Assembly (NCBI GenBank): GCA_002189035.1
Contig: NEEC01000012.1
Location: 2,480,001-2,544,000 of the forward strand
Length of the DNA stretch: 64,000 nucleotides
Reading direction: 5' to 3'
Origin: Utricularia gibba
Taxonomy: Eukaryota; Streptophyta; Magnoliopsida; Lamiales; Lentibulariaceae
The translations under genes were made by a program, and so were the position numbers. The stretch's first letter is position 1, and each line of letters begins with the position of its first letter. Shown piece by piece: positions 1,278 to 57,191 of this stretch. Below the pieces are notes generated by a model that was not told the origin of the DNA, made no database searches, and saw only the letters and a program-made list of their open reading frames with translations.

Positions 1278-2532
1278 ATGGCGGGTACGGAGCCCCAGTT
1301 TCACATCCTGGCCGTCGATGACAGCGCCGTCGACAGAAAGCTCATCGAACGCCTCCTCAAAGCCTGCTCCTTCAAAGGTAAGGGAATAAACCCTTCCGCC
1401 CTTTCGTTCTTCGCCGCGATTCTCTCATTTCTCAGGCGGGCTTCTTCTGCTCCCTTCCCTTCCACAGTAACGGCGGTTGATTCCGGGAGCAAGGCGTTGG
1501 AGCTCCTCCGACGGAGCCACGATCATTCCCACGTAATTAACTCGGTTTATTTTTTAATTACCAGAGGGTAAAACTTCTAAACGGTAACTTTTTTTTACTG
1601 GGGCTCAGGACGCAGACGTCCATCTCGTAATTACGGACTACTGTATGCCAGAGATGTCTGGGTACGATCTACTCCGGAAAATCAAGGTACTTTTCTTTTT
1701 TTTTACACTTTTTTATTCATTTTTAGTTTATTTTTTCCATTTTATTTTGATATTGTATTTATTTTACTTCAATTCCAAAATAGTAAATACCCAAGGTCAA
1801 ATTAATAATAAAAAAACAAGAAAAGAACAGATATTGTGAGATTTGACGTATCTAGCGTGGATAGCCTGTCAGCATCGTGGGCCCCATCTGGCAAACTTGG
1901 ACATGAATGAGAATCTTGTGCGGATCTCGATGGCACATTTTTGTTTTTTCTTTTAAATCTGTTTTATTTTTATGGCACATGATAAAATTATATTGTTGAT
2001 TTTGATAAATTAAATTATTGGAGAAATTAATGCAAGTTTATAAATGTATTTTTATTAAAATAAATATTTAAAAAAATCAACAATTTTTGAAATTAATCTG
2101 GTTGTTTGCGGTTTGCAGGAATCTTCAAGCTTAAGGAATATACCGGTGGTGATTATGTCGTCTGAGAATGTGCCCTCAAGGATCAACAGGTTCGAGATTA
2201 CTTGAATTTTATTTAATATTTATAAAATAAATAATTAGATTTTTTTACTATTTTTATTTTAAATGCAGATGTTTGGAGGAGGGTGCGAAGGAGTTCTTGC
2301 TGAAGCCGGTGAGGTTAGCAGACGTCAGCAAATTGATGCCTCACGTAAAATCGAAGAGCAAGGAGGCGGTCGGAGTGATCCGGGGGTTCAAGAGGCCGGT
2401 CTATCACCGGTTCAGCAGGATGGCGTGGAGGATTTGAGGTCCGGTTTTGTTAGCAAGAAGAGGAAGCGTTCTTCCGATGAACCGGATAGTGTCACCCGGC
2501 CGCGACTCGGTGGGCTGACAGTTCAGTCCTAG
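1278..2532 (+). CDS. Type-A two-component response regulator (ARR family), C-terminal tail out of frame
   Basis: Receiver-domain protein of cytokinin signalling. It accepts phosphate from HPt proteins and acts as a negative-feedback regulator in nucleus and cytosol. Five exons: 1278-1377, 1468-1532, 1609-1686, 2119-2189 and 2269 onward, the typical type-A structure. Visible motifs are FHILAVDDS (acidic pair D14/D15), the phospho-acceptor D65 in [17 protein letters not shown], and the invariant Lys117 in FLLKPV. The start at 1278 puts the receiver near residue 9, as in the family. As written, the frame stops at 2435-2437, giving 160 residues with an odd tail. The other frame continues to 2532 through a basic [12 protein letters not shown] stretch and an ending in RPRLGGLTV, typical of type-A tails. 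One missing G in the run 2382-2386 would join them into about 192 residues. No DNA-binding Myb domain follows, which excludes type B. Confidence 0.9.
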
Positions 2533-2618
2533 ATATTTTTGTTTTTGTATAATTGAAATTCGTATTTTTTTGGTATAATTGAAAAATGTTTTGATTTTTA
2601 AAATTGGTTCAGAATCAA

Positions 2619-2697
2619 TGGGCTGGCCCAGTAGGATAAATTGGTTCAGAATCTGTTAATTTAGATTACAATGGGGTGGGAAGATGGGCCGGGCCCT
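2619..2697. promoter_or_regulatory. GGCCCA/TGGGCC cluster upstream of CSN6
   Basis: Several GGGCTGGCCCA- and TGGGCCGGGCCC-type words lie 130-210 bases before the CSN6 start. Such site II elements are bound by TCP proteins in promoters of growth-related housekeeping genes. The assignment to CSN6 rests on position only. Confidence 0.4.
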
Positions 2698-2830
2698 AGT
2701 GTGTAACACGGGGGCGGAGGGAAAAAGGGAGGAAACTCCGGTTCTTTGCGGATTTCTGTAGTCTTTTTGATTTTTTTACCAATTTGGCCTCTTCTGTTCT
2801 GCAAGGGCACAGAATCGAGGAGGCGCTGAA

Positions 2831-6008: not shown

Positions 6009-8793
6009 ATGCATGCAAGGCATAGATATGGACCTGGGAATGGGTACAGGGGAAACGCTGTGGGGGTGAGCAGCATTGCTGGTTCCTCCAGAAGCTCTTA
6101 TGAAGGTCCAATCAGAGGTCATAGGATGTACAATCCTGAGTACAGGAATTATAACCGTGGAGGTTATGGTCGTGGTGGTCACTCCAAACATTTTCAGCAA
6201 CAAATACAACCTACAAGAGAGGCAGACATTTTGATCGAAGCTGGTAAGTTGGCTGCCGAGTATCTGGTTTCTAAGGAGTTGCTGTCTCCAGCTGCACTTT
6301 CTGGGAAATATAGTGATACCTTGGATAACCAGTTCGGAAATTTTGAGATCAGACCACCTCATAAAACTGAATTTGCTGATGGTCGTGTGTCTGTTCATTC
6401 ACGTCTGGGGAGTTCTCTTCCAAGTTTCGGGCAAGGTCGAAGAAGATATCCTGATGAAAACATTTCAGTAGGTGCAAAGAATTCGACGAAAGGAAGGAAA
6501 AGATCTGACTCTTTAAAAATTAACGGGGCAGAGGTTAACAGAGATCTTAAGCAAACTGGCAGTAATAGGACTTCATCATACATTGAGGGCTGCGCTAATG
6601 CTGTGGATGGGCATGATGATGAACAACCTCCAGCTGAAGATGTTAATGGTGGTGTACAAAATTCACCTCTTGTTGAAACAAATCGTGAAGCTGACACTGA
6701 CGGGCATTCAACTCCCGGATTTTTGAGAGGTAATAAATCTATTTATGCTGGTGCAAAAGATAGCTCATTGAGTATTGAGGTGTCTAAGCCACCAGATGTT
6801 GAAGGGGGAACTATGAAGGAGTTCCATGATGATGATAATAAGGAAGGAAGAGAATGGATGGATGATAATGATGTGCAACAAAAGAACCATGAGAAAGAGG
6901 AACTCAAAGACATGCAGCAGAAATGTGATGAGAATGAAAGGGCCAAAGTTCTAAATGGTGGGGATGGTGTGGTCAGTGACAACCATGGTGATTTATTAAA
7001 CCACTGCAACTTTGTTAACTTTCCTACAAAGCCACGCTCTTTATCGATGACTAAAGGTTCAAGGAGCAGTCGGAGTTCCACTAATGAAGATAATAATATT
7101 TCAAGAGAAGTTTTGGAAGGTTCCAGTGCTCATGTCATGGATGCTGATACTGGTAATTCGGCCTGTAATGATTCTTCTTATCAAAAGCATGATTTCAAAG
7201 TCCTTCAGTTGGATGTTACAGACTCTTCTTCTGTTGAGAACAGTCTGAACAAGCATTCCACGAAGATACATGGAGAATGTTCGAGGTCTGTGTCTAAGGA
7301 GCAGGATATAGATGATAGCCTGTCGAGTTTTAGAAAATCAAGCCTCATGCTGATGGATGGTGGCAAAAAGCGTTCTGTAGATTGTGATGTTGATGATATT
7401 GAGGACACAAAAAAATTCAGACAATGGATCCTTCCATTGGATATGCAGCCTGATCGTATGCCCCAAGTATCTGCCACAGTGGATAACCAGGCAATGCTAC
7501 CAGCAGCTGGAACTTCCCAACATGCTATTTCAATGCCATCTTATGATAGGACCTGTCTGGATATATCTCTGTCGCCGAAGGCTTCTACTGGTGTTCAGGC
7601 CATTGAAGAGATGGATTTGTTTCCTGCTTCATTTAAGACGTGTGACTTAAACCTCACTGGCAGTCATGATTCAGATTCCATGCGTAGTTTTCCGTCAACT
7701 AAGCAAGTTGGAAAAGTGTCGGTGCCTATTGATATTGACTTGTCCATCAGCAACACCAGCAATCCCTCTATTGCAAATGGTAAAAATGGCATCACTGAAA
7801 ACAGCTTCGAAGTTATTGATTTGGAAAAGGAGCCGGAAATGGAGGTCCAGACCTTTGGAAACCCTGACAGAAGGTTAATATCTCCTTCAGCTTTCATATA
7901 GATGCCTCGCCTGCGACTGAACATCCCACATTTGGTCACAAAATTAAGACAATTTAACTTTTTTCATGATTACTTGCTGATTTGGATGCCTGACATTCAC
8001 TATCCGTCTAAACTTCGGTTATGCAGGGAAGAAGCTTTGTTTACCGGTCTTGATGGCTTTTCCAGTAACTCTAACATGATTTCTGATATCCATGATGGTT
8101 TTGGTCTTATGATGTCTGAATTTCTTGGGAATCAAAGCCCATGCTGCTCTTCTGTCCCCCGGACTTGACTTCTTTGCACAATCAAATGGTTCTTCCTAAC
8201 CACGAGGTAATAAACTCACTACTTTATGTGGCTGCACAATCAAATGGCTCTTCGTGATTTGTCTTCTCCAGTGTCTGTCTCCACATTTTGAAGTAGGAAA
8301 CGAGCTTGCAGTTTAGCAACAGTTCATCTTCAATAGGCTACTGAATATCTCTGTGATTTGCGTTCTCAAATCCCAACGATGGAACAATAAAAACACCAAT
8401 TTTTTCCCTTTATTTGACTGCAAGCAGATTTTAATCTTTTTCCTGTTTCTTGCAGGGAATGCTTGGCGATGATGACTCTATTTATATGTCACTGGGAGAG
8501 ATACCAATAAGTATGCCTTAATCTTCCTTCCTCTTTTAGTCAACTCTGTCTTTTTCTATGACTTTGGCGAGGATTCAATAAGGTTCATCCTTACTCACCA
8601 CTGGGTCAAGGATCCTTGCTGGTTCTTCTCGATTTGAACTTTTAGGCATACCTACAATACAATCAGAGTATCGTTTTGCTGTGCTATCAGTGTGTACATA
8701 ATTCTTGTTTTGAACTTGCTTCTTGCTGGTTCTTTCTCAGGCTTTTTAGGGCCGTGGGAACAGCCAACCCAGGACTACGGGAAACCATTTTGA
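6009..8793 (+). CDS. Plant-specific protein similar to At4g26450, interrupted by a one-base loss in exon 2
   Basis: Function unknown; this is a plant-only family without a named domain. The start MHARHRYGPGNGYRG matches the family N-terminus. It is followed by a glycine/arginine patch RGGYGRGG (residues 50-57) that could bind RNA, and a conserved helix ADILIEAGKLAAEYLVSKEL (72-91). A long acidic, serine-rich, probably disordered region fills the middle. Exons: 6009-7873, 8027-8206, 8456-8510 and 8741-8793. Exons 3 and 4 encode GMLGDDDSIYMSLGEIP and the conserved end WEQPTQDYGKPF. In exon 2 the frame entering from exon 1 stops at 8166-8168 (668 residues), while the frame leaving to exon 3 is one base off. 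The change lies at the C run 8156-8160. With one more C the product would be 717 residues, close to the family length. Confidence 0.85.
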
Positions 8794-13948: not shown

Positions 13949-14011
13949 AATGTGAATGGGTATGATTATCTTAGAGATTGACATATTTTCAATGGAATCG
14001 ATCATCACAAT

Positions 14012-14361: not shown

Positions 14362-16553
14362 CTAGAACCCCAAAACTTTGGAAAGCCTGTCTGAGACATT
14401 TGCTATCACGAATCCTGCAAACACCTGCAAGCATAGCATTTGGCTCCATCATCCTCCTCCCTGCAAAACACATCCTGATGCTATGCGCTTGACTGAATGA
14501 CTCACCTGAATAGATCCTAGGATGTAAACTGCTGAGTATTGCCGGCCATGAATCGCCATATCGGCCAACATTGCGACCGGGATGGTCAGGGACATGCCTA
14601 AGGTGGCAACCAGGGGTGTAGTCCAGATTACGGATAGGGCCCTGATCAGCAAACACACATGTTGAGTAGCATCATCAGATGCAGTTTTGGGAAGGGGATG
14701 GTTGATGTTGTGTACCATATGTAGTCAGATAGAACGCTTCCTATGAGTCCATTTGCGATGACAACTTCATCCACTCTCACTGAATGGGGAACCGTGAACT
14801 GGGGTTCGATGCCGAGAGCTGTCAGTGGCCAAACTGAAAGCAATGCAGGGATTAGAGACATTTATGCCGTGATGGCTGAATGTGCACCCAAGGAGGACAA
14901 CCTCTTGCCTGTCGTCCTTTTTGTGTATGTATGTTTGAAACATACATCAAAAGCATCTAATTTTTTCACCAGACTTGGAATTCTTACCCAGCCACCAGAG
15001 AGACACAAGGGTAAAGAGCCCCACATAACCAAATAGCTTCTGCACATCGGCTTTTTCCTCCTCCCCACCGCAGAACTTCTTAAGAAGCACTACAGAGTTT
15101 AAAAAAAAGAGAGAGCCGTTACACATACTTCTGATGCTTGATTCTGGGTTGAGGGAGATGCTTACCAGTGAACAAGCCGTAAGTCACAGCTGACATGAGT
15201 CCAAACATATCCCCAATGAGAGTGCGTTCGCTGGTTCTATAGCAAAAGAAATTTCAACCATGAGTCTGTTAGTGATACATTGATTCCCATGTATAGTGTA
15301 CTGCATGGCTAGCAAGACTGAAAAGAGCTGAAATGTGTACATACGATGAAGTATTTAGTTCTGAATCATCGGCAGCCCATGTTTTACCAAAGGTTGTCAT
15401 CACAGCGCCAGCCATGCTGACAAGCACAGCCGTGACTTTTGCAATGCTTAATGAATCATTTCCCAAAAGCACACCGATAAACAGGGTAAACAACCCTGCG
15501 GTAGAAGATAATACTGTAGTGCTTGCTACGCTTGTACGTGCGAGAGCAGCATTTGATAAATACTGCAAAGTAGAAGCAAAAGGAGCAAAAAAGGCATCAA
15601 TCATTAGAAGGAAAATGAATGCAAGTGATGGCCTCTTGTTTTAGATATTAGGCCAGAGTAAGCTGTTGATCTGAGATCAGTGCACACACAAGGAAATAGA
15701 TAAGTGCTATAAGTTTTAGACACCCAATATCAGGAAAACAAATCTTCAGTTTGAATGTAAAAGGTATTAATTACCTGTTACACAACAAAAATTACCTCAG
15801 TGACAAACCAAAGAGGAGCTATGTAAAACCCAAAGGTAGCAATATCTTTGGTTGTCATTTCTTTTCCAGTTTTAATAATAGCATCATCCTGTATTCTGGA
15901 AACTAAGGGTTTCCCCTCATGCTCTGATAAGTTATTTTCACTGTTCTTCCGGTCGAAAGATCTTTGAATTTCCATTTCAAGGAGTTTCTGCCCCTCAATG
16001 AACTCTGAAGGGCCATTACATGCATTGTTCCTCACATCCGGAACTTTCTTACCGTTTGTCTTAACCAAATTCCAGATAAAATCTTTTAAAAACGCTATTG
16101 GAAGATAAATCACCATCAGCGAAGCCCCGAGATATGTCACAGCAAACGGTTGCTTATAATCTACGAAAATACCCTGTTCGAAGAACCAGAATGAAAGGTG
16201 AGATTGGATGAATTTACACACGCTAAACTTCCTATAATCCAAGAAATTCTTTTTCTCTTTGGGTTGCTAGTTAATAGTGATTAATCTTTGCACAGAACTG
16301 CAAGCAGGCAGCAAAACATAGGGGAAAGCAAAGAAGCAAGAGAACCAATTAAAACAATTCACAAAACAGAAAAAAAGAGGAAGGAGCTTTGAGCTGCGAG
16401 TCATAAACCATCTAAAGATCCTAACCACGCATACGCACAGGAGAAAACAAAAAAATGGAGACAACTGACCTGCGTAACCTCTGCAGAAGAAACCCATATA
16501 ATGACCACTGCAGCAATTAACACTAGCCCCGCCTTATATCTCCAACCCATCAT
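14362..16553 (-). CDS. Drug/metabolite transporter, solute carrier 35F / EamA-like
   Basis: Membrane carrier of the DMT superfamily (plant At3g07080/At4g32140 group); substrate unknown. Eight exons on the minus strand give 389 residues in one frame: 16553-16470, 16173-15796, 15562-15345, 15236-15166, 15089-14988, 14833-14716, 14641-14506 and 14424-14362. The N-terminus [20 protein letters not shown] is the first membrane helix. About ten hydrophobic helices are visible. Residues about 70-140 form a charged cytosolic loop. Family blocks include [52 protein letters not shown] and [15 protein letters not shown]. It is convergent with the HAP8-like gene; the two stops are 413 bases apart with tRNA-Ile between. 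Confidence 0.92.
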
Positions 16554-17163: not shown

Positions 17164-18061
17164 ATGGCGTTCAGATCTCGCGAAATGATGAAAAAAGTTC
17201 TGAATAAGGTCGGTGGTGAGCAAAAGCTGGCGCCGGGAGTGAAAGAGGAGCTGAAGAAATTTATGCCGGATAGGAAAATCGTCATGGGTCGTGCCCACCG
17301 CGGGCTCTACGCCGGAAAACATATCCAGTTTGGTAATCGCGTCAGTGAAGATGGCGGGAACAAGTATGGATATTTTCTTCCTGGATTCCTTTCATGTTGG
17401 ATTGATATATCGAATGTGTTTTCTCTTATTTTGTCAAGTTCAGAATTTCGCTATTGTTATGGGTTTCTCAAATTGCGAAACTTTTCGTGTGATCAGTTGA
17501 TTTGTCTGTGTGTGAACCTACTCTTTTTTTACAATTACCGTTTTATTGTAAGCGCTTCATATTTGGAGCGCAAACTTGACCAAATGAGTTTTTACATGGC
17601 ACTCGTACACTCTGTGATTCTACTTGTTTTGATGCCTACCATAGGTCAAGGAGATCTTGGAAGCCTAATGTTCAGGAGAAGCGACTCTTCAGCTACATTT
17701 TGGATCGTCACATTCGAGTGAAGGTATCAACTCATGCACTCCGCTGCATAGACAAAGCTGGTGGAATTGATGAGTACCTGCTCAAGACGCCATACCAAAA
17801 GATGGACACGGAAATGGGCATTCAATGGAAGACCAAGATCGAGAAGATGTACTCAGATCTTCGAGAGATGGAGGTCGTTTTCTTCTCTCCTGAAAGTGAG
17901 GTGAAGATTGAAGAAGAATTTAACCAACTCAAGTTAGAAAAGAAGGCTTTCCGCAGAGAAGCTAGAAGAAAGATGTATGGTCTCCCCCTAAACAAGATCT
18001 GCTTAAGGATGGGACTGATGCTGAGAAGGATAAAGAAGAGCATTTAACTGAAGCTACATGA
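17164..18061 (+). CDS. Mitochondrial large-subunit ribosomal protein bL28m, C-terminal tail out of frame
   Basis: Ribosomal protein L28 family, organellar type. Exon 1 is 17164-17363 and exon 2 starts at 17645. The core GRAHRGLYAGKHIQFGNRVSEDGG joins across the intron to SRRSWKPNVQEKRLFSY, then HIRVKVSTHALRCIDKAGG and the plant bL28m block DEYLLKTPYQKMDTEMG. As written the frame ends at 18045-18047, giving 200 residues with a basic tail. From the C run 17984-17988 the neighbouring frame reads an acidic tail (PKQDLLKDGTDAEKDKEEH) to a stop at 18059-18061. The codons and charge of this tail fit coding sequence better. One missing C explains both. It is bacterial-type L28 by core motifs; a plastid bL28c would be shorter and lacks the long C-terminal block. 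Confidence 0.88.
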
Positions 18062-18554: not shown

Positions 18555-20156
18555 ATGGCCGCTAAAATGGGCAAGGTTAGAATGTTGGAAGACATGTTTC
18601 TGGGCTTGATGAAGAAATGCGACAACACGAAAGACTTGATGAGATTGCATTGCTACATGGAGAAGTTTTCATTGCTTCAAAGCAATTTCTTGGTATCCAG
18701 AATGTTGGATGCTTGCGTTCAATACGTCGAGATCCAATACGCAACTTCGCTTTTCAGGAACGTTCTTCGGCCTAACATTTATGTGTACAACGCAGTTATC
18801 AGACTCTACACTCACAAGGAGAATTATGTATTAGCTCTCAAGACATTCAAGCAGCTGCTGAGTCACAGTGAAGAGCATCTCCAGCCTGATGGGTTCACTT
18901 TCCCATTTGTTATAAGGGCCTGCGCGGGGGTTACGGATTTGTGGTTAGGAAAACAAATTCATGGGCATGTTTGTAAACATGGGTTGGAGTGCAATAGCGT
19001 GATTGCGAACTCGTTGCTGGATATGTACGTGAAGTGTGGCGCGATATTTGAAGCCCATGGAATGTTTGATGAAATGCGCGAGAAGGATGTGATTTCCTGG
19101 AACACTCTTATTACCGGGAACATGAATCTGGGGCGTTTGAGGACGGCGAGAGCGTTGCTTGAAGCCATGCCGAATAAGACCATTGTTTCTTGGACTACGA
19201 TGATATCTGGGTATACAAAAGCTGGTCTTTTCGGTGATGCATTGGTGATGTTTAGAAGATTGCAGGTGCTGGGAATCCAGCCTGATTGGGTCAGCTTGGT
19301 CTCTGTTTTGCCTGCTTGTTCACAATTGGGAGCTCTTGAACTTGGAAAATGGGTTCATTCTTATGCTGATAAACATAGGCTTTTAGGCATAACCGTCTTA
19401 TGCAATGGCCTCATTGAGATGTACATGAAGTGTGGTGGTGTTGACCAAGCCATGCAGCTGTTTAGCACCATGAGAGAGAGGGATGTGATCTCGTGGAGTA
19501 CAGTGATTTGTGGCCTGGCAGTTCACGGGAGAGCTCACGAAGCACTTGACTTGTTTGATGAGATGCAGAAATCCAAAATCCAGCCGAATGCAATCACCTT
19601 CGTTGGTCTGTTGTCAGCTTGTGCCCATGCAGGCTTATTAGATCAAGGCCAGAAATACTTCCATTCTATGCAGAATGATTACAACATTGAGCCAGAAATT
19701 GAACATTACGGTTGCCTCGTTGATATCCTTGGACGAACGGGTCAGATCGAACGAGCTTTGGAGGTGATCAAGGGCATGAAGATAAAGCCAGATTCAGCAA
19801 TATGGGGTTCTCTGCTGAGTTGCTGCAGAACACATCGTAATCTTGAAATTGCTGTCATTGCCATGGAACAGTTGTTGGAGTTAGACCCTGGAGACACAGC
19901 GAACCTCGTCTCGCTTGCAAATATATACGCAGACCTCAAGAACTGGGATGGGGTAGCAAGAATGAGGAAGCTCATGAGAAGTAAGAGAATGAAGAAAACC
20001 CCTGGTTGTAGTATGATTGAGGTGGACAGCGTTGTTGAAGAATTTGTGAGTGGAGGCATCTCAAATCCCTTATGCAGACAAGTTTTGGAGCTCTTGTCCT
20101 TGCACTGGACCAAGACGAATTGTGATTATGCCGACACTCTGGCTCAAGAGTTTTAG
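18555..20156 (+). CDS. PLS-class pentatricopeptide repeat protein of the E/E+ type, MEF21-like
   Basis: RNA-binding PPR protein, 533 residues without introns. Tandem repeats start at about residue 50 and include NIYVYNAVIRLYTHKENYVL, CNSVIANSLLDMYVKCGAIF, KDVISWNTLITGNMNLGRLR and VSWTTMISGYTKAGLFGDAL, the P-L-S alternation of organellar C-to-U editing factors. After the repeats come the E motif (IWGSLLSCCRTHRNLEIA to LVSLANIYADLKNWDGV) and a short E+ stretch ending near EVDSVVEEFVSG. There is no DYW deaminase domain, so such proteins recruit one in trans. The layout and end resemble At2g20540 (MEF21), a mitochondrial editing factor. The target site cannot be deduced here without reading the repeat code. 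It lies 500 bp downstream of bL28m on the same strand with its own promoter. Confidence 0.88.
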   Translation: MAAKMGKVRMLEDMFLGLMKKCDNTKDLMRLHCYMEKFSLLQSNFLVSRMLDACVQYVEIQYATSLFRNVLRPNIYVYNAVIRLYTHKENYVLALKTFKQLLSHSEEHLQPDGFTFPFVIRACAGVTDLWLGKQIHGHVCKHGLECNSVIANSLLDMYVKCGAIFEAHGMFDEMREKDVISWNTLITGNMNLGRLRTARALLEAMPNKTIVSWTTMISGYTKAGLFGDALVMFRRLQVLGIQPDWVSLVSVLPACSQLGALELGKWVHSYADKHRLLGITVLCNGLIEMYMKCGGVDQAMQLFSTMRERDVISWSTVICGLAVHGRAHEALDLFDEMQKSKIQPNAITFVGLLSACAHAGLLDQGQKYFHSMQNDYNIEPEIEHYGCLVDILGRTGQIERALEVIKGMKIKPDSAIWGSLLSCCRTHRNLEIAVIAMEQLLELDPGDTANLVSLANIYADLKNWDGVARMRKLMRSKRMKKTPGCSMIEVDSVVEEFVSGGISNPLCRQVLELLSLHWTKTNCDYADTLAQEF

Positions 20157-20330
20157 AGAAACAGCAGCCTAATCTGCTATGCAGGTATCTTTGTACATTA
20201 ATGTATATGTGATTCAAATTTTTAGAGATGGGAACTGATTAGATGATCTGATTGTTAGCTGAGGCCACTAGAATCAATGCTAAATCTTCTTACCAATAAA
20301 ATTTGCTCTACTTGTATGTTTTTACAGCGA

Positions 20331-20830
20331 ATAGCCAAGAAACAGGAAAACCTGCAGCCACCAGCTGTTTTTTCAAGCACTTGACAAAACAAGGGATGGT
20401 GGATCTCCACACCAAAATGATCACAATGGGTTATGAACCTGATCCGCTCACCTGCAATTTGATATTGAAAATGCTGTGCAAGGAAGGCAACATAGACCTT
20501 GCCCAACAAATCACACAGGAGATGAGAGCAAGGGGATCAGATTTGGATATGAAGGCTAGTGTTATGTTGTTCCAGTTGCTATGCAGGTTTCGTGCCTACA
20601 TGGAAGCCATTTCCGAGCTCGAGGGTATGCTCAGTAGAGGGCATTTCCCTCCGCATCAGCTGTATCGGATGATTACAAAGGATTTGCAGAAGCAGAAGAT
20701 GAATGGAATGGTGAAGAAGCTTCATCCCCTTATGCTCTCTGTCCATCATTCCGCAGAGCTGCCTTACAGATGCAGAGCAACATCCCACATGGTGAAGAAC
20801 AGCAACAACACAAGAGTGCCTGCCAGATGA
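20331..20830 (+). pseudogene. C-terminal remnant of a P-class PPR gene
   Basis: An open frame begins only 175 bases after the MEF21-like stop, behind an acceptor-like TTTTTACAG. It reads two recognisable PPR-type helices: MVDLHTKMITMGYEPDPLTC, then NLILKMLCKEGNIDLAQQIT and QEMRARGSD. It continues to LQKQKMNGMVKKLHPLM and stops at 20828-20830. No start codon or preceding repeats are in frame: the first Met is in the middle of a repeat. The parts that normally precede are absent, so it looks like the 3' end of a lost PPR gene or an alternative last exon. The E-type gene next door is not its parent, since the repeat class differs. Confidence 0.55.
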
Positions 20831-23980: not shown

Positions 23981-26527
23981 TTATGCTCTGATCAGCAACT
24001 CATAAACACAGCCATTATACTCTCCAGAAACACGTTTCAGCATTTCAAAACTCCTCCTACTGCCAAGAAAATCAATCCTCTTCAACACTACCGCACTCTC
24101 TGCAGAGTAAGCATCTCGGAGATTGTCCGCATGCCGCGAGTCCGTGTGGATGCCGATCTCGATCTCCTCCGGCGACATGCTTGCCTGGTAGCATCAATAT
24201 GCTTCAGAGGAATGCAGTGTAGCGCAATGCTGGATGATGAGATGGGAGCAGGTAGTACCTGGTAGAAGGCATAGATGTGATCAAGGATTTGCAGGCATGT
24301 GAAGCCTGTGTTGCTGAAGAATGTTTTCGAGCATGGCCCTATTTCTGAGAAGCGATCAACTGGAAACAAGATGGTCATGAAACTGCCTTTGAATATCAGT
24401 TGTGATTTTTCGCTGCAAGGTGGAGAAGCCATCAGAGGAACACAGATGATATTCAATGATGTGCATATGTTGTGCAAAAGGGGCATCTAGGACTGGTACC
24501 TTTCTGTGAGAGGACGGGAAGGGTTGATGAATGAAGTTTCAGTTTCCTTTCTGTCATCCATTGCATCTGTGAATCCATCGATGCTGCAAGTGTCGCTGTG
24601 CATAGCAGCAGTAGAAGTTGGCTCAGATATGGACCAGCAGATGGAGTCAAGAAGGGTGATTGGAGTTATCAGGGGACAGGAGTTCGGCACATCTGCTTTG
24701 CCAAGATAAAAATTTGATCACTCATCATGGATAGGCAAACACATAAACATTGGCAGCCATAAAGTCTGCTGTTTCTTAAAAAAGTTTACAGCAAACTTTA
24801 CCTTCATTTGGGGATTTCTGCGTTTTCTTACACCATCTTTGGCCAGGGTCACCTGATAACAAAGATGAGCAAGAGTTTCTCTTCAGAAACATCGTGCAAT
24901 CTAAGATTTATTCATACAGTCTTATCAGATCTAGTATTTTGTATTACCTTCATTTGCCTTTCTTCAAGACTGAATTCAGCAGGGGACATGTTTAAAACAC
25001 TTGAACTACAAGTTGCAGAAACTGCCTGAGAGGATAACAGATGAGAGTGTTACTCAACAGCTGCTTAAAGAAGCATAAATGAGCACCGAAATAAATTGAC
25101 CTCATTAGAGCCATCCTGTTGTATATTATCAAGCATAGATCCGGTAAACCTGGCCAAATCAACAGATAAGTGGACTAATCTTTGCATTGAATGTTCTTTA
25201 GCAGACTTCAGTACCCACAGAGGCTGCAGAAAAAGACCATAAGAACAAAAGAAGAAAATAAATGGTCCGGCTTCAAGTTTTCCTATGAGCAAACTTGTAA
25301 ACGCATATCATTACCGTGACAACATTACTTGAGTGGCCAAGATACTTTTGAATTGAAAGTCCCTCGCAGACGACATAATTCACATTGCAACCAACAAACC
25401 ATTGATTGACCAAACTAGCACCTTCAGTGGAGAGCACCTGTACAACCTGAAAAAACAAACATTTTTTACAAAGGTATGTTTAGTAGACAAAGAAAAAGAA
25501 TCTTGATATTCCTCAAAAACATACCTTACTGCGGAGCTCAGGAGGAACACCTTCATCGATATAAAAGACTTCGCCTGAAAAAGGTGAAATACCAGTGCAT
25601 CTTCTGGACTCTGACTCACGCATCAACACTGCATCAGTATGCCTAACTGGATTCATATTCTCCGCGACAGAATACTTCTCATGCTGCTTGAAGTCATCAT
25701 TTGATGCACCATTGTTCCTATTAATCCCATATAGCTCCTCATTCAACCTAACTGGAATAAAGCCAGGAATGCGAAAATTATCCTTCTATAACGGAGAATC
25801 CATCATTCAAAACTACGCCTTCTACTAACAGAAGTTACCGTTGCTTCTGACACTATCAACGAACCAGCCTATTGTTACAAGGAGCAAACCATTCTTTGCT
25901 CCATGTCTCAAAGCATGCATAAATTTACGCCCATTAGAGCTGTAGAAATTGTTAAGGGTGGCAAGAATCTGCTAAGTAAAATCAAGTCATCGACATATAG
26001 AGTATCCATATTCAAAATTGGTAGAATGTCATATTCGCGCTCACTAAAAGCAACACAGACTTTTGCATAATAAAGGATATCTGAACAACCAAATGACTGC
26101 AATGATCATGTAAGTGAGGACTGTATTGACCACCCAATCTCTCAGTAGCTTCCTTGACCTGCCTCCTTGTTTCTAAAAGATAATCATGAAATTAGAACAA
26201 AATCCGCTATTCGAAACATCTAGGAATCGAATCAAGTACGTCAAACCAGAAACCACAGCCCCCTGTAACATGTAATGAGAAGATTAAGAATGCACCTTTA
26301 GATAATCCAGTTACACAGATCACAAGGCCGGAAAATGGTCCATCAGGTAGCGACATTTTAGCTGGAGATTCGAAAAACTTGGATACGGGGAACATGGGAG
26401 ATGCGGGCTCCATAAAAAAAGAAGGAATTCGTCTAAACGAGGAAGAGAAATCTGGAAACATCTTTGAACACCCTTTCCCAGAAAACACCTTCACTCTGTC
26501 ACCGTTGCCTCTGATTACACCGGCCAT
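23981..26527 (-). CDS. Two-BRCT-domain protein of the TopBP1/MEI1-like type
   Basis: BRCT repeats bind phosphopeptides in DNA damage and meiotic checkpoints. Eleven exons: 26527-26296, 26172-26081, 25941-25839, 25751-25525, 25446-25315, 25223-25101, 25025-24948, 24852-24802, 24695-24500, 24412-24259 and 24184-23981. BRCT1 (residues about 65-150) starts FSGLVICVTGLSK and has ATERLGGQYSPHL and the GWFVDSV tryptophan. BRCT2 (about 200-300) starts FSGEVFYIDEGVPPELRSK, then WFVGCNVNYVV and PLWVLKS. The C-terminal part has LLDSICWSISEPTST, GFTCLQILDHIYAFYQ, IHTDSRHADNLR and the end NGCVYELLIRA. Intron 2 is AT-AC. Exon 9 needs one extra G/C at the run 24672-24675 to stay open; then the protein is 530 residues. 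It is shorter than Arabidopsis MEI1 as I remember it, so orthology is uncertain. Confidence 0.82.
25942..26080 (-). other. U12-type AT-AC intron in the BRCT gene
   Basis: On the minus strand the intron begins ATATCCTTT and ends CCTTAACAATTTCTAC. These are the U12 5' splice consensus ATATCCTT and the branch consensus TCCTTAAC, with the branch adenosine about 10 bases from the terminal AC. Exon 2 ends VVQ and exon 3 starts SSNGRKF in phase 0, inside BRCT1. A GT donor in the same place is not available. Confidence 0.92.
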
Positions 26528-28603: not shown

Positions 28604-28654
<51 letters not shown>

Positions 28655-29002
28655 TTAAAAAACCGTACATTGTGGCAACCAAAAGTAAACAATGAGTCAT
28701 GATGAGTCATGAACTTTATGATTGGTGAATAATGTGAGAAATTAGGATGCCTATTGAAAATAATAATAAAAGGGGGGTACGTACGGCTGGAAAGGAAAAG
28801 AAGGGGGGGGGGTGGATCATAACATTTCATGCTTTCACCTAAACCCTAGCTCACGTGACTGGCGCACGTGGGATACCCGGGATTACAAGAGGATTTACGA
28901 TAATATAATCACGATTAGCAAACTTTCCAAACCAAAAAAAATCAAACTCTGGAATTCAATCCTCCTGATTTACTTAACTATTACATCGGATTTTGTTGTT
29001 AA
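26528..29002. other. BRCT gene 5' region and long spacer without a supported gene
   Basis: About 26528-26990 is probably 5' UTR and promoter of the BRCT gene; GGCCCA words cluster at 27050-27104. About 27220-28180 has balanced composition and could be a noncoding transcript or the decayed remains of one, but no protein or RNA family was recognised. 28300-28780 is AT-rich with a TA microsatellite. 28800-29000 lies just downstream of the CRF gene. Confidence 0.4.
28609..28642. repeat. (AT)n microsatellite
   Basis: About 17 uninterrupted AT units, followed by degenerate ATTTAT copies to about 28660. Confidence 0.95.
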
Positions 29003-29983
29003 TTAGACGGAGAGGGGATCCGACCCGAAAACATCGTTGAAGTCCTGGAAAAAGTCGTCGGACGGCCAGAGTAGCGCGGCGGACCCGGAATCGGAGTTGG
29101 AGCTGGTGAATAGAGCGTCGTTGGAGATGTCCAAAGGGAGAAGTTCATCCGAGAAACCCGTCTGATCGAAGAAATCGGGTAACAAAGCGGGGTTATCGAC
29201 ATCGGGGAAAAGGTCGTCGATCGGAGGGAATATCGAGAAATTGGAGAAACTTTCCGTGAGGGAAATAGCGGGAGAGTCGTTGGATGGGGAGGGTAAATGA
29301 TGATGGGCTTGGGTGGAAGGAGGTTCGGGTTCGGGGGAGACGAAGCGGAGGACGGAGCTGGGGGACTTGGCATTGGTTTGTGATTCTTCGCCGGAGTTGT
29401 AGCCGGCGTTCTTTCGGGTCTCGGGTTGTGGATTCGAGAAATTGGTGAGAGCGTCGGGGCCACGGAGTTGAATGGCGGCGTGGTCGTATACCATGGCGGC
29501 TTCTTCCGCAGTGTCGTAGGTCCCCAGCCAGAGCCTCACGCGCCGCTGTGGGTCTCTAATCTCCGCCGCCCATTTCCCCCACGGCCGTTGCCGCACTCCC
29601 CTGAACTTCTTGTTACGGAAATTGCTTTCCTGCACCACACCCACACTCTTCTTCCGCTTCTGAACCGTCACCGCCTGCCGGCAACTCTTCACCGCTCCAT
29701 CAGAACAACCGCTAAGACTTCCATCCTCTGATCGAATCTTCACCTCATTCACGTACCGCCGGACACGGCGCCGTTTAACAAGCAACTCTAACCTGTCCTC
29801 CTCATCACTGGAGGAGTCAGTGGCATCAGGGTCAGTAACACAGAACCGTACAGTCCTTACACCAACAACCCCACCGGAAAAATTGCTATTCCCTTGGCAC
29901 TCCGGCAACTGCAACCCAGTAACCACAGTGGTACCCGACACGTATTCACTAATTTTCGGTTCTCCTTCACAAAACACCATCAT
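29003..29983 (-). CDS. CRF: Cytokinin response factor (CRF-type AP2/ERF transcription factor)
   Basis: Nuclear transcription factor, single exon, 326 residues from the ATG at 29981-29983 ([10 protein letters not shown]). An in-frame stop lies upstream, so this start is firm. The CRF motif [18 protein letters not shown] (residues about 45-62) defines the group and mediates contact with the cytokinin two-component pathway. A basic segment [15 protein letters not shown] follows. The AP2 domain (about 126-182) starts [20 protein letters not shown] and has the ERF-type Ala and Asp contacts (WAAEIRD) and [13 protein letters not shown]. The C-terminal half is acidic and Ser/Pro-rich, ending with alternating aromatic and acidic residues ([10 protein letters not shown]) typical of activation domains. 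The copy cannot be matched to one CRF number from the sequence alone. A 4-kb AT-rich region lies upstream. Confidence 0.93.
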
Positions 29984-32900
29984 TATCCTGTTACTCTTCG
30001 TCCTCAGATTCACATTGAACGGCGCAACAAACCTTCAAGAGCCTCAACCGGAAACACAAAATTGAACAAAAACAAAACCAGGGAGACTCTTATCGACCGG
30101 CAACTAACTGCTGCAACATAAAAAGAAACCCCAAAAAGACTCACTCCCAGAAAACAGAACGTGAAACCAGCAACCAGAACAAGAAGAAGCAGAAGATGGG
30201 TAAAAGGTGAAAAAAAATCACAGTTTTATAGTATGTAGATCAGATCGATTAAAGTAGAAACCCAGATGCCAAATGTAAAAACGGACGGGCGAAGTGGGGA
30301 ACAAATCGCCATACATCACCACTATTTTATAGGATCCGAAAATCAAAAAGGATTTACCTTAAAACACAATTAATTAACATGATCCAAAATTAATTACCCA
30401 TATCAACGCGGACCATTCATAATTCCCAACACTCCATCCTCTTTTTTTTTTCTCTTTATTCATTAAATTGTTCTTGAAATCTGCGAGCGAAAGTCACGTG
30501 ACAAACGGAGTTGACGGCTCCGTTAATAATTTCCTATTTTCTTTAATATTATATTAAATATCAGCATTTAATTAATTTCCTCCATTTTCCCGCGTAAAAA
30601 TAGCAGAGAGAGCTTTGGTGCACTACATTTTTTTAATATTTAAAATATATCCAATATAAATTGAAAAATATTTTTTGAATTGTATTAATTAGAAAATATA
30701 AAAATAATTAAAATTGAATTTCCGTGAGTCAACGGAAGCAAGATGACTGTCGCGTCGTAAAAAGCTTCACGCTTCCCAAATTACTTTCGTTGTCATTTTC
30801 AAGAAAATAAAGGCGTGTGCATGCCTCAATTTTTTATTATCGAAAAAAAGAAATGAGGGCAAAATATTTATAATATATATTATTTATTAATTTTCTACTA
30901 AAAAAAAGTAATAATTAATTGCTTGAACTTCTTCCCATGCGCGCCACTTTCACTTGGATATTATTTTTCTGGTGAGTAAATAATGGAAATTCACTGGGAG
31001 GTCCTTTGACTCTCTAAAAATTACTTTCTATCTTCTTCTTTGGGGTTTTGTCTTTTGAACCTAATCTCCTTCCTCTAGTTTGTCTACCTTTTCCTTTTTC
31101 CTTTGCATCGCGTATATACTCTTATCTTTGCACTTTCCTTTTCTCTTGATCCATCTATTTTATCGTAGCTCTCCCCGAGCATCCGAAGTTGAATTCGGAC
31201 ATCGGGTCGAATATTTTGATCTATGGTAAGATTTCTCATTTTGAAAGCTTATTACAATGGGCCCAAAATGTATGAAAAAAAGGTGTGAATTTAAATTTTC
31301 AAATTTGGAGGGGTGCACCCAGTAATTATTACTAGAGGCCTCGGCAATGAATACCGGTAGTGTGGAACATTCATGTATGCACCAAAACGTTGGCATTATT
31401 ACATTTTCACCTTCCCAATATTCCCCCCCTTCTTTCGAGATATTGACATTTTGACCAACTTTTGTACGGTATTTGCAAGAGCACCCCAAGTACCGACATC
31501 CATCGTATGGTTGTATTTACTGTTAACCAAACAAGTTACTTTTAGTATTTAACGTTTACACCATTTCCATAAAAGGTCATAATAAATTCACGTACGTCAT
31601 TTTAAATAAAAACTTATTTCTAGTCCAAAATTACAAATTTTGTTGGTAAACTTTGTCCTGGTTACCCCCATGTAGTACACTCGGTGAGTAAAGGGCTCTA
31701 CATCATAGAGGTGTATTTTAAAAACTATTGTGCAATATGGTTGAATTGTTATGAATCGTAAAATGTGTATTAAAATGGATGCATTAAACTTGAAATGTTT
31801 TATAACAGAGAAAAAATAAATCACGATCCAATCATGTTTTGATCTTTTTTTATATATAATACAAACACTTAAAAAGTGTTTTTTTAAAAAAAATTATTTA
31901 ATTTGAATCATGGTTGAATCTATTATGATGTGTTTAGTAGAATAATATAATTAATAATATATTTGAGTTATTTGCATCTTAATAAACATATATTATATTT
32001 TTAAGATCAATGTTTGTTTGATATATAGATTTTGAACATATGTATTTAATATAATATTATGTTTGATTAGGAGTTTCTTTTTAGCAAAACCTACCTAAAA
32101 AGTTGATTTTTTTAAATACCCAATTCTAAGTTTTTTAAATATTATGAAAGTTTAAACATTTAAACCAAACTACCAAACAATTTACATTTGATTTAAAATG
32201 TGAAATGTTTGCCTACAAATTTTTTTGATGATTTGAAACAATGCGTTAGAGGGGTATAATCATGATGAATCAGATGCCCCCAATAATGAAGCTCAGCATC
32301 GATGCATTGGGTGTGTGATTGAATAGACAATCATGATTCATGAAGTCGCTAACTTCACTTATTGTGGAAGTGTAACAGTGTTACAATCTCCTCCATGCAT
32401 TTCAGCCATAGGGTTTTCCGGTGGAGAAGTTAATGCTGGCGGAGGAGGAGGAGGAAGGTCGGTGGAGGGGCAGTGCAACGGGATTCATTGATGACCGGTT
32501 TAGGGCCACCTACGACATTAAGACATCTGGGTCGTGCAATCATCAGCAGCCAAAGGGTGGGGGTTGGCTGGTATACACACAACACAAGGTATTTGAAAAA
32601 TTAAAATTAAATTAAAATATTCAAGTATATAAGAGAATAGTCTAATATAATCTATATTTATTGTATACTTGTAATTCATATGTGTTCATTCGATCCATAA
32701 GATACTTAATTTCAACATTACTTATTTCGCTTTCTTTGTAAATGGTACATAGGTTATTCCAACAAAAAGTATGGGTGTTTTGAATCTTGTAATTGTTGAA
32801 ATTCTTGTGTTGAAGAATAAATTGATATCCCATATTGTTAGTTGAAAATGAGTTCAATTTGTTTATAAGAGATACCAACCAATTAGTTTTGATAGTCTTG

Positions 32901-36600: not shown

Positions 36601-36625
36601 AAAAACAAACAAACAAGAAGATGGC

Positions 36626-38100: not shown

Positions 38101-39893
38101 TTAGGAAGCTTTTGTGCGAGACTTGGATCCTGTGCTCTTAGATCTTGCCTCAGGCAGCGTCGCCTCCAAACTGTTCTCCTTCAAATCTGGAGGCAATCTT
38201 GAAGATGACTTCAAGGCACCATGACCATGACTCGGCAGTTTCCCTGCCCACCTGCGGACTGGACTCGGTTGTGTCCTCCAGATGGATGACACTGAAGCTA
38301 CATGGTGATGCTTCCCATTTCTCACTTCTCTCAGGAAATGCCTACCCTTCATTGGATCAACAGAGGTGCCGTTCGAATCTTCAGAGATCATCATGCTGCT
38401 CTGATGTTTCCCTTTCTTGTGATCCTTGAAATGCTCGTCCGAATGGAGCCTTTCATCATGTTGCGAGGATTTGAAGTTCACCTGCGAGGTTGATTCCATT
38501 GGCAAGTTTGCAGGGTTCTTTGATCCCTTCTGGTTCGTCGCTTCAGAGTGACCAACCGTCCTAGATTTCAGACTGTCATGGCTCATTTTTCCGAGTTCAA
38601 AGAGGTTTGAATCACTATGTGGAGCATCATCCTCATTCCCTTCATCAGGTGGGATACTACCAGCTGCCACCATCTCAGACCTGAAAGTGGGTTCATGGTT
38701 TGTGGGCATGGCCCCTGTGCTACCAATTCTCCTGTTCTCTATCAAGGCTTCGATTTCACGGCGCAGTTTATCCACTGCAGAGTTGCTTCTACGGTCGATC
38801 GACGACTTAATCTGCATTCGTTTTTCCAGCCAAGATTCAGCAACATGAAGCAGCTGATCCAGATCACTTCTCCCCCTCCAGTTAGTATCAGATTTCCGTC
38901 CAAGGAAACGCATTTCCTTGTCATAATCACGTATTCCAAGAGCAAACGCATCGCAGAGTTCTTCCAGCAGCTCCTTGGAACATCTTTCTTCCTCAAGCTC
39001 CTTAAAAACTGCCCTGAGAGCTGATTCCACATCATCAGCCTCAACAGATAACCGTCGCTTGAAATCTTCAGAGTGCTTCACCAATTCAAGGGACTGATGC
39101 TTGTTTCTTCTCATTTGCTTCCTCAATTCATCTATTTCTTGTTGGTCAGCTTGCTGCTCTCTCAGCAATGATTTTAACTGCGAATGAGCCTTATGCAACT
39201 CTTTCTTTAACTCTTTAACCTCGTCCTGTGATGAATCAAACAAGCCATGAAAGCAAGAACTCTACAGATTGCATCTCAATCAACTATAGAAGCTTCATGC
39301 TGATGCAAGGGGTGAACGAAGCCTCACCTTAATTGAACTATGGTGACTGGATGGAGCTGGTATTTGCATAGGATGCGTATTCTCACCAGATAGACTACGC
39401 CCTGATCGCCGTGCGACTGTGAATGGCTGCCTCTGATGACCAATATGAAGATTAATACGTTAGCACAATGGCAGATTAGGCAAAAGAACAATCGCTTAAT
39501 CTAGGAAATGGGTGCTTTCGCAGTTCAAGATGAGGTAGTTTCTAATACAAGTTTAGAAGGAGAGGAGGGGTGAAGGCCACTCTTGCGCCGCCGGAGAAGA
39601 TGATCGCCGCCACCGTATTCCATTCTTCGGAGTGGGCGTTTGTACTGATTGAGCTCCCAAAGGGCGGCAGCAAGTTTCCTAGCAGAAACACGGGAAGCCA
39701 TAAAGGTGCCGCCTTTAGAATCGGTCCCCGCCAATTTTTCTCCAACAATTCCGCCATGCATGGCTGCCGTGCTGTAATCTCTGCGTCTCCACAGGGACGA
39801 AACTGGAGTGAATTGCCCACCCCTTTTCCCTACTTCACTCAAATTCACTCCAAAGAATTCAAATTTTTCAGCTTGGGGTTCCACCCTTTTCAT
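38101..39893 (-). CDS. Coiled-coil protein of the At1g64180/At5g41620 (USO1-like) family
   Basis: Plant-specific coiled-coil protein of unknown function. Three exons, 39893-39549, 39426-39328 and 39225-38101, give 522 residues. The N-terminal motif VSARKLAAALWELNQYK is the family signature. Exon 2 reads PFTVARRSGRSLSGENTHPM. From residue 149 a long coiled coil begins DEVKELKKELHKAHSQLK and continues through REQQADQQEIDEL to the conserved ELCDAFALGIRDYDKEM (about 238-254). The tail is basic and Ser/His-rich (SSIWRTQPSPVRRWAGKLP) and probably disordered. An older automatic name, intracellular transport USO1-like, rests on the coiled coil only. The protein is somewhat shorter than the Arabidopsis members as I remember them. 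The first ATG, at 39893, opens with MKRVEPQAEKFEFFG, matching the family's MKR-type start. Confidence 0.85.
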
Positions 39894-43440: not shown

Positions 43441-44593
43441 ATGGAAGCCTTCAGTTTGCTAAAATTCTGGCGCCCTGCCGCCGTCTCCGCCGACACCAAA
43501 GCCACCGTGGGCGCCGCCGAGTTTGATGCTGAGGATGGACCCTACATTGACCTTAACTTCCTCCTCCCCGACCAACAGCAACAGGAAGGAGAAATGGATG
43601 GGGAAACGGATTCCGGGTCTGAAAATGAAGTGCATGAAAACGAAGATGAGGTTAAGTTTGTTGACTGTTTCACGGATGATTTCGACAGCGATGTTGTTTC
43701 TTCTCCTTCCGGTGAAGTAATGCTTAAAGGGGAGCTTCTTCCGATTGAAACGGCAACTGTTTTGGTGAATGGGTCTGCAGAAGCATCAAAACCCCCTGTT
43801 TTTTTCACCAAGTTTCGTGTGCTTCTTCTCAAGCTCGCGAAACCTAAGGCTTCAGGGGAAAAGGGCAACGCCAAGTTCGCCGGGAAATTGTTCGCCGTGA
43901 AGCTTAAAGTCGACGAGGTGCCAATAATGTCCTTGTTTAACAGAGAGAAGAACTCCAGAGAGAAGCAAAAACAGCAACAGCTTGATGAATCACCGGCAGA
44001 CGAGAGAAAATTGATCAAGGAAGTGGTTCAAAAGTACATCAAAATGGCGAAGCCTTTCCAAATCCGGGTCCTCAGGAAGTTCGCCGGAGGTCCAGAGCCG
44101 CCGTCTCCCGGAGGAAAATCCAGCAGTTCTGAGGGACCACCCAATTCGAAGAAAACCCAAATGGGAACCAGTAATTTTCAAGCGAGGATAAAAGTAGTTC
44201 GAAAACATTTGGGTAAAAGCCGATCAAATGCTTGTTCAATCGCCTCCACGCCGCGAGCCAGAATCGACGGCGACGATTCGCTGCTGCAGTTACAAGAAGG
44301 AATACAAGGCGCTATTCTTCATTGCAAGAAATCATTCAACGCCACCACAGGTATAAAAACAAGTCGCAATCTTTCACACCAAGAACGCATTTTTATCTCT
44401 CCCCAACAACGCGAGATGGCTTAAAATCCAGTAATTTTCTTCATTTTACACAGACGGGGAATCTCCTTCTTCATCCTCCCAAGAGAAACTGGTGACGACG
44501 ATCCCAAGCAATAACTCCACTGCAGCAACGCAGTCAACTGTCTCTGGAGAAGCTATGGCGGCAGAAGGAGAATCTACTAGGCCAAGTCCCTAG
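43441..44593 (+). CDS. MAKR2: Membrane-associated kinase regulator, MAKR2-like
   Basis: Small plant-specific regulator that attaches to the plasma membrane through basic patches and binds receptor-like kinases, related to BKI1. Two exons, 43441-44350 and 44454-44593, give 349 residues. The start MEAFSLLKFWRP matches the MAKR2 N-terminus. Family motifs are GPYIDLNFLLPD (about residue 34), the PPVFFTKFRVLLLKLAKPK block, KLKVDEVPIMSLFNREKNSR and the C-terminal VQKYIKMAKPFQIRVLRKF. Acidic and lysine/arginine-rich stretches alternate, as expected for membrane anchoring controlled by phosphorylation. The intron after the conserved HCKKSFNATT is GT-AG. Convergent with the LEA2 gene. Confidence 0.88.
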
Positions 44594-51748: not shown

Positions 51749-52340
51749 TCACATGATGGTGCACTCCCCTCTGCTTTCGTACATGTTGTTGTTGCTGTAG
51801 GGAGGATAGTAGTAAGGAGGGTTGTAGGAAGTGTAGTAGAAGTAGTCAGTGTTGAGTTTCCCCATCTGCGCGCTGTGCTCCATCCCAACCCTACCCACCT
51901 CGTTCTTATCGGACTTGTACGCGCCGCCGCCCTGCTTGTCCCAGTCCCTCGCCGGCCCGACGTTGACTATCTCCGGCCGCCACGAGTTTCTGAGCTTGCC
52001 CACCACGTCCACCGCGTCAACATCCCCCACCACAACCAGTCTTTTTTCCTTCAAGTCAATATGCACAGACTCTATGCCTACAAAGTCACAGGTGCAGTTT
52101 AGAAAAGCTAGAAGATTTCTGTCACTGATATATCAACAACAACAACAACAACAAAGATAAAACAGATTCCATGTCTTGCCTTTGAGGCTGGAGACAGCCT
52201 TCATGGCCTTCTGCTTCTGTTTGGCGGTGTTGATGTCTAACTTGATCACCACTTTCTGCAATTCAAGACCCATCAAAACGAACCCACAAAAAAAACAGAA
52301 ACAGAAAGACAAAACCAGTACGCCCGCTCACCTTCATCAT
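51749..52340 (-). CDS. Heavy-metal-associated isoprenylated plant protein (HIPP), degenerate metal site
   Basis: Three exons, 52340-52332 (only ATG ATG AAG), 52255-52180 and 52077-51749, give 137 residues. The HMA fold (residues about 3-70) reads KVVIKLDINTAKQKQKAMKA, then VSSLKGIESVHIDLKEKRLV and VVGDVDAVDVVGKLR. The metal-binding CxxC of the first loop is absent (INTAKQKQ), so copper or zinc binding through that site is not expected. The linker is Lys/Gly-rich, then Tyr/Pro-rich (YNPPYYYPPYSNNN). The last four residues CTIM form a CaaX box for farnesylation, which would place it on membranes. Intron 2 has a GC donor. A 9-base first exon is common in this family. A CAA microsatellite lies in intron 2. 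Confidence 0.9.
52078..52179 (-). other. GC-AG intron in the HIPP gene
   Basis: On the minus strand exon 2 ends CTCAAAG and the intron begins GCAAGACATGG, matching the extended GC-donor consensus AG|GCAAG. It ends TTTGTAG before GCATAGAG. No GT near the border keeps the HMA domain in frame. A (CAA)n run of about seven units lies inside, at about 52136-52153. Confidence 0.85.
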
Positions 52341-54923: not shown

Positions 54924-57191
54924 TTATCCGGCGAGGTCGTGAAGGAGTTGAGCCCCCATCAAGTTTCTGTAAGGAAGTGCCTGGTTTTCTGAATCCAGCA
55001 ACGAGTACTGCTCCGTCTGGCAGTCTTCAATCTGCTCTCTACTGTAGAAAAGCGAGGTCGGAGCCGCGGCAGAAGGAAACCCAATTCCGCTGCCGCTGGC
55101 TCCGCCGTGCTGGTGAAGTCCAAGTGTTAAGGAAACCCCACCGCCGCCGCTGCTTTGGAAACCGATCGCTCCCCCCGGGGTGTCGTTCATGTAGGGGACG
55201 GCGGAGGCGGGGTGGTGGGCGTGCTGCCAGTCGAGCTCCATGGCGTTGTAAGAGTTGATAAAGGCTTGCTGTTCATTGAGGAGACCCTTGTTCTTTCTCA
55301 AATCATGCTTCTCTTGGGAACCGAGTATGGACGTTAAGCATTCCGAGTCTATTCGGACAAGCTGATCCTGCGTCGGCTTCTGATCCTCCATTCCTTGCTG
55401 GTTCTGACAATCCATGTTTGCCCCTCCGATGTCTGCTGCACCTTCGTTCTCCTTCAGTTCCTCAAGGTACATCTCTTCCACCATTGGCTTCCATAGCCTC
55501 ACCCTCGCGTTGATAAACCAGTTGGAAACCTATAGAAAACACCATGCAGATTAACCAAAATTACTATCATGTAAAAGTTGAATTCATTCACCGTAAAAAA
55601 AAAAATATAGACTGGCCTGGCTGCGAGAAAGCCCAGTTTGGCGAGCAAGGATGTGCTTATCTACGTCACAAGGGTACCTACAGCAGAATCCAAGATGACT
55701 TAGTCGAAAAACGACGATGGATCAACGTGAAACTGAAATTTCATCTGGTAAAAAGTGTGTTACGGGTGTAAAAAATGTTCGAAAAGCCAAGCTCGGAGAA
55801 CGGAGACAGCCCGTTCGGGGAGGCCACGCTGGGGGCGCCATGGGTGGCTGTCCATCAAGCTCATCTGTTGAAGAGCTCTTTGTTGCCTGAGTGTTTGATC
55901 AAGGAGTCGCAGTCTCGGGGTCTCCCCTTTGGTGGTCCCCGGAGCGGCCGCGTCCTTGTCTCCAATGGCCTTCTTCGTCGCTCTTATTTGGCTCACGATT
56001 CCGTCTCTCAGACATCGGAAGTGCCGCGACATCGCCTTGGACGCCATCGCCGAATAAACGGTGGCCCCCCCGGTTCCGGCGACTGCCTCGAAGGACGACA
56101 CAACGCCTCTCATCTGATCACAGTAGTACTTGTACCGTCGATCCACCTGAAGAACAATAAGGATGGTTAAAAAAAAGGTGATGGCAGAAAAATGTACAGA
56201 ATAAAAAGGGAGAATTGGGGTTCAAAATTTAATGGAACTCTTGAATGGTCACCATGTGAGCATTGAATAATGAAGAGTTCTTCACCTCTGATTAGTTCAG
56301 ATTTTTAACTGCACTTTCACCTGGTAAAAAGTATGCAGTATGTGAAATTACGAGCGGTTTTTTGGTATTCGGATACGTACCTCGACCATCATTTGAAGAA
56401 GCTTTGTTTTTCTTCTCTGCAACTCGAGGAGATCGAGTGAGTAAAGTGACTGTTTCTTGATGATGACTTCTTCTTGGTGCTCTATGGGTTTTTGGCCCTT
56501 GAGTCTGAGAGAGTTCTCCATGATCTCTTTAGTGTCGAGACTGCAGAATTCGTTGAGAAGCTCCTGTGCCGGAGAGAGATATCGGGAGTTTTTCAGGACA
56601 GAGTGAGCCTCAAAAACTTGAGGCGGCGGATTTAAAGACCGGGAGCTGGATGGTCCGAATCGCATATCTTGTCGGAGCTCAAAGTGCTGTAAGCCGATGG
56701 TGGAGGGATTCGAAGAGCTTAAGGAAAGTGAAAGGCCTTGGCTGGGGCGCTCGTTACCTTCGCATGGGAAAACACAGCTGCTTAAAGAATGATCGTCGCC
56801 CGGATAAACGCTCGGCTTGAGCTTTGCTGAGGGTGGTGGCTCCACGGCGGTGGAGAATCAATCAGCGTTTCATGGTTGTTCTGATCGGAGATGCCTCTGA
56901 AATCATGGTGATAAAACCCCGACGAACCCGGTTCATTCAACGTATCCTTACCGGCCGACTGGCTTCCTCCCCCGTTGTAGGCGCCACCCCCGCCGCCGCC
57001 GCTTTACTGAACAACTCCTTCCACATCACGGCAGCGGGCTCTCCTTGCTTCGCCTGAAATCCTATCATTTCCATGCCGGCGGTTAAGTTATAGATCTCCG
57101 GCGGCGCCGCCTCGAAGCCCACCAAATGGGGATTCTGATTTCCGGGGAACGAACCGTTCCCGTAACCGAACCCCGCCCTCTCCTCACCCAT
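54924..57191 (-). CDS. BEL1: BEL1 homeodomain transcription factor, exon 1 with two apparent one-base losses
   Basis: TALE-class BELL protein that pairs with KNOX partners; in Arabidopsis BEL1 specifies ovule integuments. Four exons: 57191-56381, 56146-55764, 55677-55617 and 55529-54924. Motifs are [20 protein letters not shown], the SKY box [19 protein letters not shown], and the BELL domain [20 protein letters not shown] with [13 protein letters not shown]. The homeodomain spans [49 protein letters not shown] and [20 protein letters not shown]. The tail has GVSLTLGL (ZIBEL-type) and the BEL1-specific end [14 protein letters not shown], which favours BEL1 over other BLH genes. In exon 1 three frames succeed each other; breaks are at the 5-base run 56969-56973 and between 56785 and 56857. 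With two extra bases the product is about 620 residues, normal for BEL1. Intron 3 has a GC donor. Confidence 0.88.
55530..55616 (-). other. GC-AG intron inside the BEL1 homeodomain
   Basis: On the minus strand exon 3 ends CGCAGCCAG and the intron begins GCCAGTCTATA. It ends CTATAG before GTTTCCAACTGG. Joining at CAG|GTT in phase 0 gives SRSQ followed by VSNWFINAR, the invariant recognition helix. The GT four bases further in would shift the frame. Confidence 0.75.

Follow-up and report, generated by a model that had tools for sequence, protein, structure and literature searches.

Gene content of the window and of its duplicate block

The window is a stretch of 64,000 nucleotides of Utricularia gibba DNA (contig C244, bases 2480001-2544000) in an assembly of 100.09 Mb and 516 contigs. 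It carries plant genes of the POX/BEL1, response-regulator and PPR types, and its features are listed in Table 1. DNA searches with five of its genes located a collinear duplicate on contig C213 for three of them, and the same searches found no second copy in the genome for bL28m or for BRCT. The segment C213:732001-852000 was compared with the window for the reading frames of each copy. The two were collinear, with identities of about 66-85% for most matches. The long collinear block extended over window positions 1114-62254 and C213:733761-851522 (L017-L028), occupying about 61 kb in the former and 118 kb in the latter, and evidently originated from a whole-genome or segmental duplication. 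The window also contains a PPR-like C-terminal fragment (20303-20830) that immediately follows an intact PPR gene (18555-20156); no N-terminal part is in view, and the fragment may be a gene remnant.

Table 1. Positions of confirmed and claimed breaks, and of open genes with an interrupted duplicate, in the window
Feature	Position	Strand	State	Comparison or basis
Response regulator (PF00072), last exon	2355..2386	+	one base short net	duplicate C213:735482-735748
At4g26450-like gene, short exon (~8028-8206)	8156..8160	+	one base short at CCCCC	C213 exon open in one frame across site
Transporter exon	15269..15604	-	open in window	duplicate one base short at ~C213:750466 (GGG)
bL28m, exon 2	17984..17988	+	claimed break at CCCCC run	no second copy; solved relatives 6xyw, 9gyt
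BRCT gene	24672..24675	-	claimed break at GGGG (+ strand)	splice phase only
ERF-type gene	29003..30013	-	open in window	duplicate one base short in C run (CCCCC) at ~C213:814702
Coiled-coil gene	38101..39243	-	open in window	duplicate one base short at ~C213:825876 (AAAGGG)
BRX-like gene	43441..44424	+	open in window	duplicate one base short at ~C213:829672 (TTTCTCCC), adjoining CCC
BEL1-like gene	54924..57191	-	purifying selection in all parts	dN/dS against C213 duplicate
BEL1 exon 1, second break	~56799..56803	-	one base short at CCCGG (+ strand)	C213 BEL1 alignment
BEL1 exon 1, first break	56969..56973	-	one base short at CCCCC (+ strand)	C213 BEL1 alignment

Interrupted reading frames in the window and on C213

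The sequence-only reading of the window had proposed six one-base losses in five genes. Four of these, in the response regulator, in the At4g26450-like gene and twice in BEL1, were confirmed by comparison with the C213 duplicate. The receiver domain of the response regulator was detected with a Pfam E value of 2e-22, and the tail of the gene, down to the stop codon at 2530-2532, matched the duplicate in a shifted frame up to the aligned stop. Further small indels distinguish the two copies here, so this break could be placed only roughly, to about 2355-2386 (DP position 2369). Exon 1 of the C213 BEL1 gene is open (276 aa) and served as the reference for frameshift-aware DP, which narrowed the second BEL1 break, previously given as 56785-56857, to the short run in Table 1. 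POX domain pieces were detected downstream of the first BEL1 break. Where the coding parts of these window genes were aligned, neither +1 shifts nor in-frame stops were seen, in agreement with the earlier claim.

The two remaining breaks fared differently. When bL28m was aligned with its solved plant relatives, the alignment ended at about residue 179-187 with either tail frame, and the tail frames scored alike, which places the claimed break in what appears to be an unconserved tail. The upstream exons of BRCT were open in phase 0, which runs into a stop at most eight codons after the splice at acceptor 24692, and the exon following this acceptor was open in another frame. These splice phases, on which the claim is based, would fit a lost base in the GGGG run. 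The sequence-only reading was right in substance, although it overstated the case for bL28m, was weak on BRCT and placed too exclusive an emphasis on G/C runs.

The comparison also revealed breaks on the other side. At least four C213 genes (ERF, BRX-like, coiled-coil and the transporter exon) were one base short where the window copy was open. Two +1 calls, one in ERF and one in BRX-like, lay upstream of the start codon and were left out. Of the eight sites, four in the window and four on C213, none was broken in both copies, and the other copy was in each case open in one frame.

Selection on the broken genes was measured between the duplicates. Ahead of its breaks BEL1 had a dN/dS ratio of 0.15; the segment between the two gave 0.19, and the parts that follow gave 0.08, 0.03 and 0.09, with dS values of 0.60-0.80 along the gene. 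For the ERF pair, dN/dS after the break was 0.17. The tail of the response regulator was less constrained (0.45 over 48 codons). The relaxed selection and mixed lesions of a pseudogene were not seen, and the aligned paths contained neither stops nor gains. For almost their entire history, the broken copies have evolved as functional genes.

Sign and sequence context of the breaks

Genes on other contigs were examined with frameshift-aware alignment at 30 loci of the BAHD acyltransferase family. Seven clean breaks were found in five genes, all of them one-base losses, near runs such as CCCC, CCCCCC and CCCCCGGG. Two loci, L035 (+2 near the end) and L052 (an intron), were left out of the break set. 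A BAHD-like locus (L044, C411:270421-271248 with flanks) carried mixed -2, -1 and +1 shifts plus stops; on account of this mixture it was set aside as a true pseudogene rather than a case of assembly error.

As a control of the detector, random one-base losses and gains were introduced into intact BAHD genes, which were then aligned in the same way. The right sign was recovered for 91% of 1538 losses and 92% of 1542 gains, with a median misplacement of 2 nt; the detector is unbiased as to sign. A G/C run of at least three lay within 6 nt of 38% of the random simulated losses, and a run of at least four near 11.6%. The 15 sequence-resolved breaks (four in the window, four on C213 and seven in BAHD genes) were all one-base losses (P 6e-5). 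A G/C run of at least three occurred within 6 nt of 14 of them, against the 38% expected (P 1.2e-5), and a run of at least four accompanied eight, against 11.6% (P 1e-4). The deletion bias at G/C runs held genome-wide in genes outside the first reading: when the four window cases that had prompted the question were removed, 11 of 11 breaks were losses (P ~0.001) and all 11 adjoined a G/C run of at least three (P ~2e-5). The further claim that breaks avoid A/T runs was matched by the count, none of the 15 lying near such a run of at least four, but is statistically weak (P 0.16).

In the run-length spectrum, G/C runs of 4-7 were not underrepresented. Since G/C runs are not depleted as a class, undercalling would be sporadic. 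A run of ten G is intact in non-coding DNA of the window (28803-28812), which shows that shortening does not affect every long G run.

Breaks in conserved gene families

GRAS and KCS genes were counted from the coordinates of match pieces. The GRAS domain is mostly uninterrupted. Among 46 GRAS genes, 27 matched in one piece and 19 (~40%) in more than one. Nearly abutting GRAS pieces were offset by -1 in eight cases and by -2 in two, with none at +1 or +2; for KCS there were three at -1 and again none at +1 or +2. The deletion bias thus extended to conserved families, with 11 of the 13 simple GRAS and KCS breaks being one-base losses and none a gain. When all 24 GRAS pairs were sorted by frame class, 15 were at -1, six in the other shifted class and three in frame; some GRAS members are accordingly more complicated cases or genuinely decayed. 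Simple GRAS breaks numbered 10 in 48.5 kb of coding sequence, or about one every 4.8 kb. Matches to the UDPGT family were too short to reveal breaks. Short-gap pairs of the Exostosin family, scored by hand and kept out of the statistics, leaned to -1 (4 versus 1), and several members of this family were intron-bearing or decayed.

One locus present on two contigs

The locus C451:2521103-2524218 (L007) was also found on the small contig C177, where it measured 3114 instead of 3116 bases with a score deficit of 16 bits. This deficit would correspond to two one-base gaps with no apparent substitution. The shift of the C177 copy increased by one base in each of two intervals of query positions, 1246-1745 (0 to 1) and 2727-2738 (1 to 2). 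A G7 run, a G5 run and three other long runs were probed and found to be identical in the two copies. Both gaps lay outside G/C runs of at least three, and one was narrowed to a stretch containing only TT and CC. The comparison, made at one locus, supports indel error in general but lends no particular weight to the G/C mechanism; C177 may itself have thin coverage or be rearranged. Two segments, C177:9444-18890 and C16:11384-15549, repeat parts of C451:2.49-2.53 Mb, partly inverted around an inverted repeat, an arrangement that could represent a heterozygous inversion or a misassembly. Segments of four other small contigs (C81:23925-24309, C506:13230-13563, C237:22501-22886 and C316:31414-32541) gave scores equal to hits on C451, C304 and C412, which suggests that the assembly holds redundant contigs.

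Discussion

The breaks are very probably one-base deletion errors of the assembly, located mainly at or beside short G/C runs, and not features of the plant genome. As would be expected of assembly error, one sign, that of loss, was dominant and recurred in unrelated genes on many contigs, the association with homopolymers exceeded chance, and two independent consensus sequences of a single locus (C177 and C451) differed by indels, apparently without substitutions. Homopolymer undercalling in a long-read assembly had been proposed from the window, and the sign of the losses, their G/C context, their recurrence and the selection on the broken genes all bear this out. Its restriction to G/C homopolymers is too narrow because the differences between C177 and C451 fall outside G/C runs of at least three. 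We propose that error-prone reads, most probably long single-molecule ones, underlie the consensus, and that it was not polished with accurate short reads. A consensus of this kind would sporadically lose a single base, chiefly within or next to short G/C runs. Every such loss would put a gene that is otherwise functional out of frame, and automatic annotation would then report truncated, split or 'pseudo' genes. The platform was presumably PacBio CLR with HGAP/Quiver, and the reads would be expected to restore the frames.

If the losses were instead in the plant, they could reflect gene decay, with an intrinsic bias toward small deletions and the loss of duplicates after whole-genome duplication. 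In a genome as small as this (100 Mb), and with the window duplicated, one copy could be dispensable, and a genuine case of decay exists in L044 with its mixed shifts and stops. We regard decay as very unlikely to account for the breaks, however, given that the broken genes are otherwise free of stops and strongly constrained after the break, that a gene with no second copy is also affected if the BRCT break is accepted, and that about 40% of GRAS genes would need fresh and simultaneous breakage. Nor does decay predict the concentration at G/C runs or the lack of gains. It is very unlikely, too, that the losses are real, with a strong one-base deletion bias at G/C runs in a shrinking genome simultaneously breaking many duplicated and single-copy genes, and with either rescue of the frames at the level of RNA or ribosome, or recent loss of the genes.

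Ribosomal frameshifting at G/C runs, programmed or tolerated, would accord with breaks at slippery-looking runs, but functional sites would be conserved, and none of the eight sites is common to both duplicate copies, each being open in the other copy; its probability is negligible. Wrong gene models, through splice phases, alternative ends or poorly conserved tails, do explain bL28m so far as the alignments reach, and might explain BRCT. As an explanation of the whole set they are highly improbable, since no intron-sized gap accompanies the BEL1, ERF, BRX-like, coiled-coil, BAHD and GRAS breaks, all of which are internal to exons or to domains without introns.

Deletion error of the assembly, the reading that we prefer, has precedents. 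In a published uncorrected long-read bacterial assembly, the commonest gene-breaking errors were deletions at homopolymers (PMC12007338). The Pss508 assembly of that work (Kastor study, PMC12007338) resembles the present case in that most errors were false deletions of one base, there associated with homopolymers of 2-8, and 23.3% of its genes appeared as 'pseudogenes', mostly through frameshifts. It differs in that it is a bacterial assembly from nanopore reads whose errors were more frequent at A/T than at G/C runs, whereas G/C runs dominate here in coding sequence. PacBio CLR assemblies that need short-read polishing (polishCLR, PMC9985148) likewise combine contiguous contigs with uncorrected consensus errors. 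A U. gibba assembly produced with HGAP from PacBio reads at 88x, with a contig N50 of 3.4 Mb, has been published (PMC5793159), and we infer that it is the assembly analysed here.

This class of artefact is already well known, and the biology itself is ordinary, with nothing new in it. For annotation it is nevertheless a serious warning, and the expectation that annotation of this genome would carry many false truncations agrees with the ~40% of GRAS genes that match in more than one piece. The remedy, polishing with accurate reads, is routine. If our interpretation is right, a sizeable share of the gene truncations, splits and losses called in this assembly are false, and claims of gene loss drawn from the small genome of U. 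gibba need to be re-checked against polished sequence.
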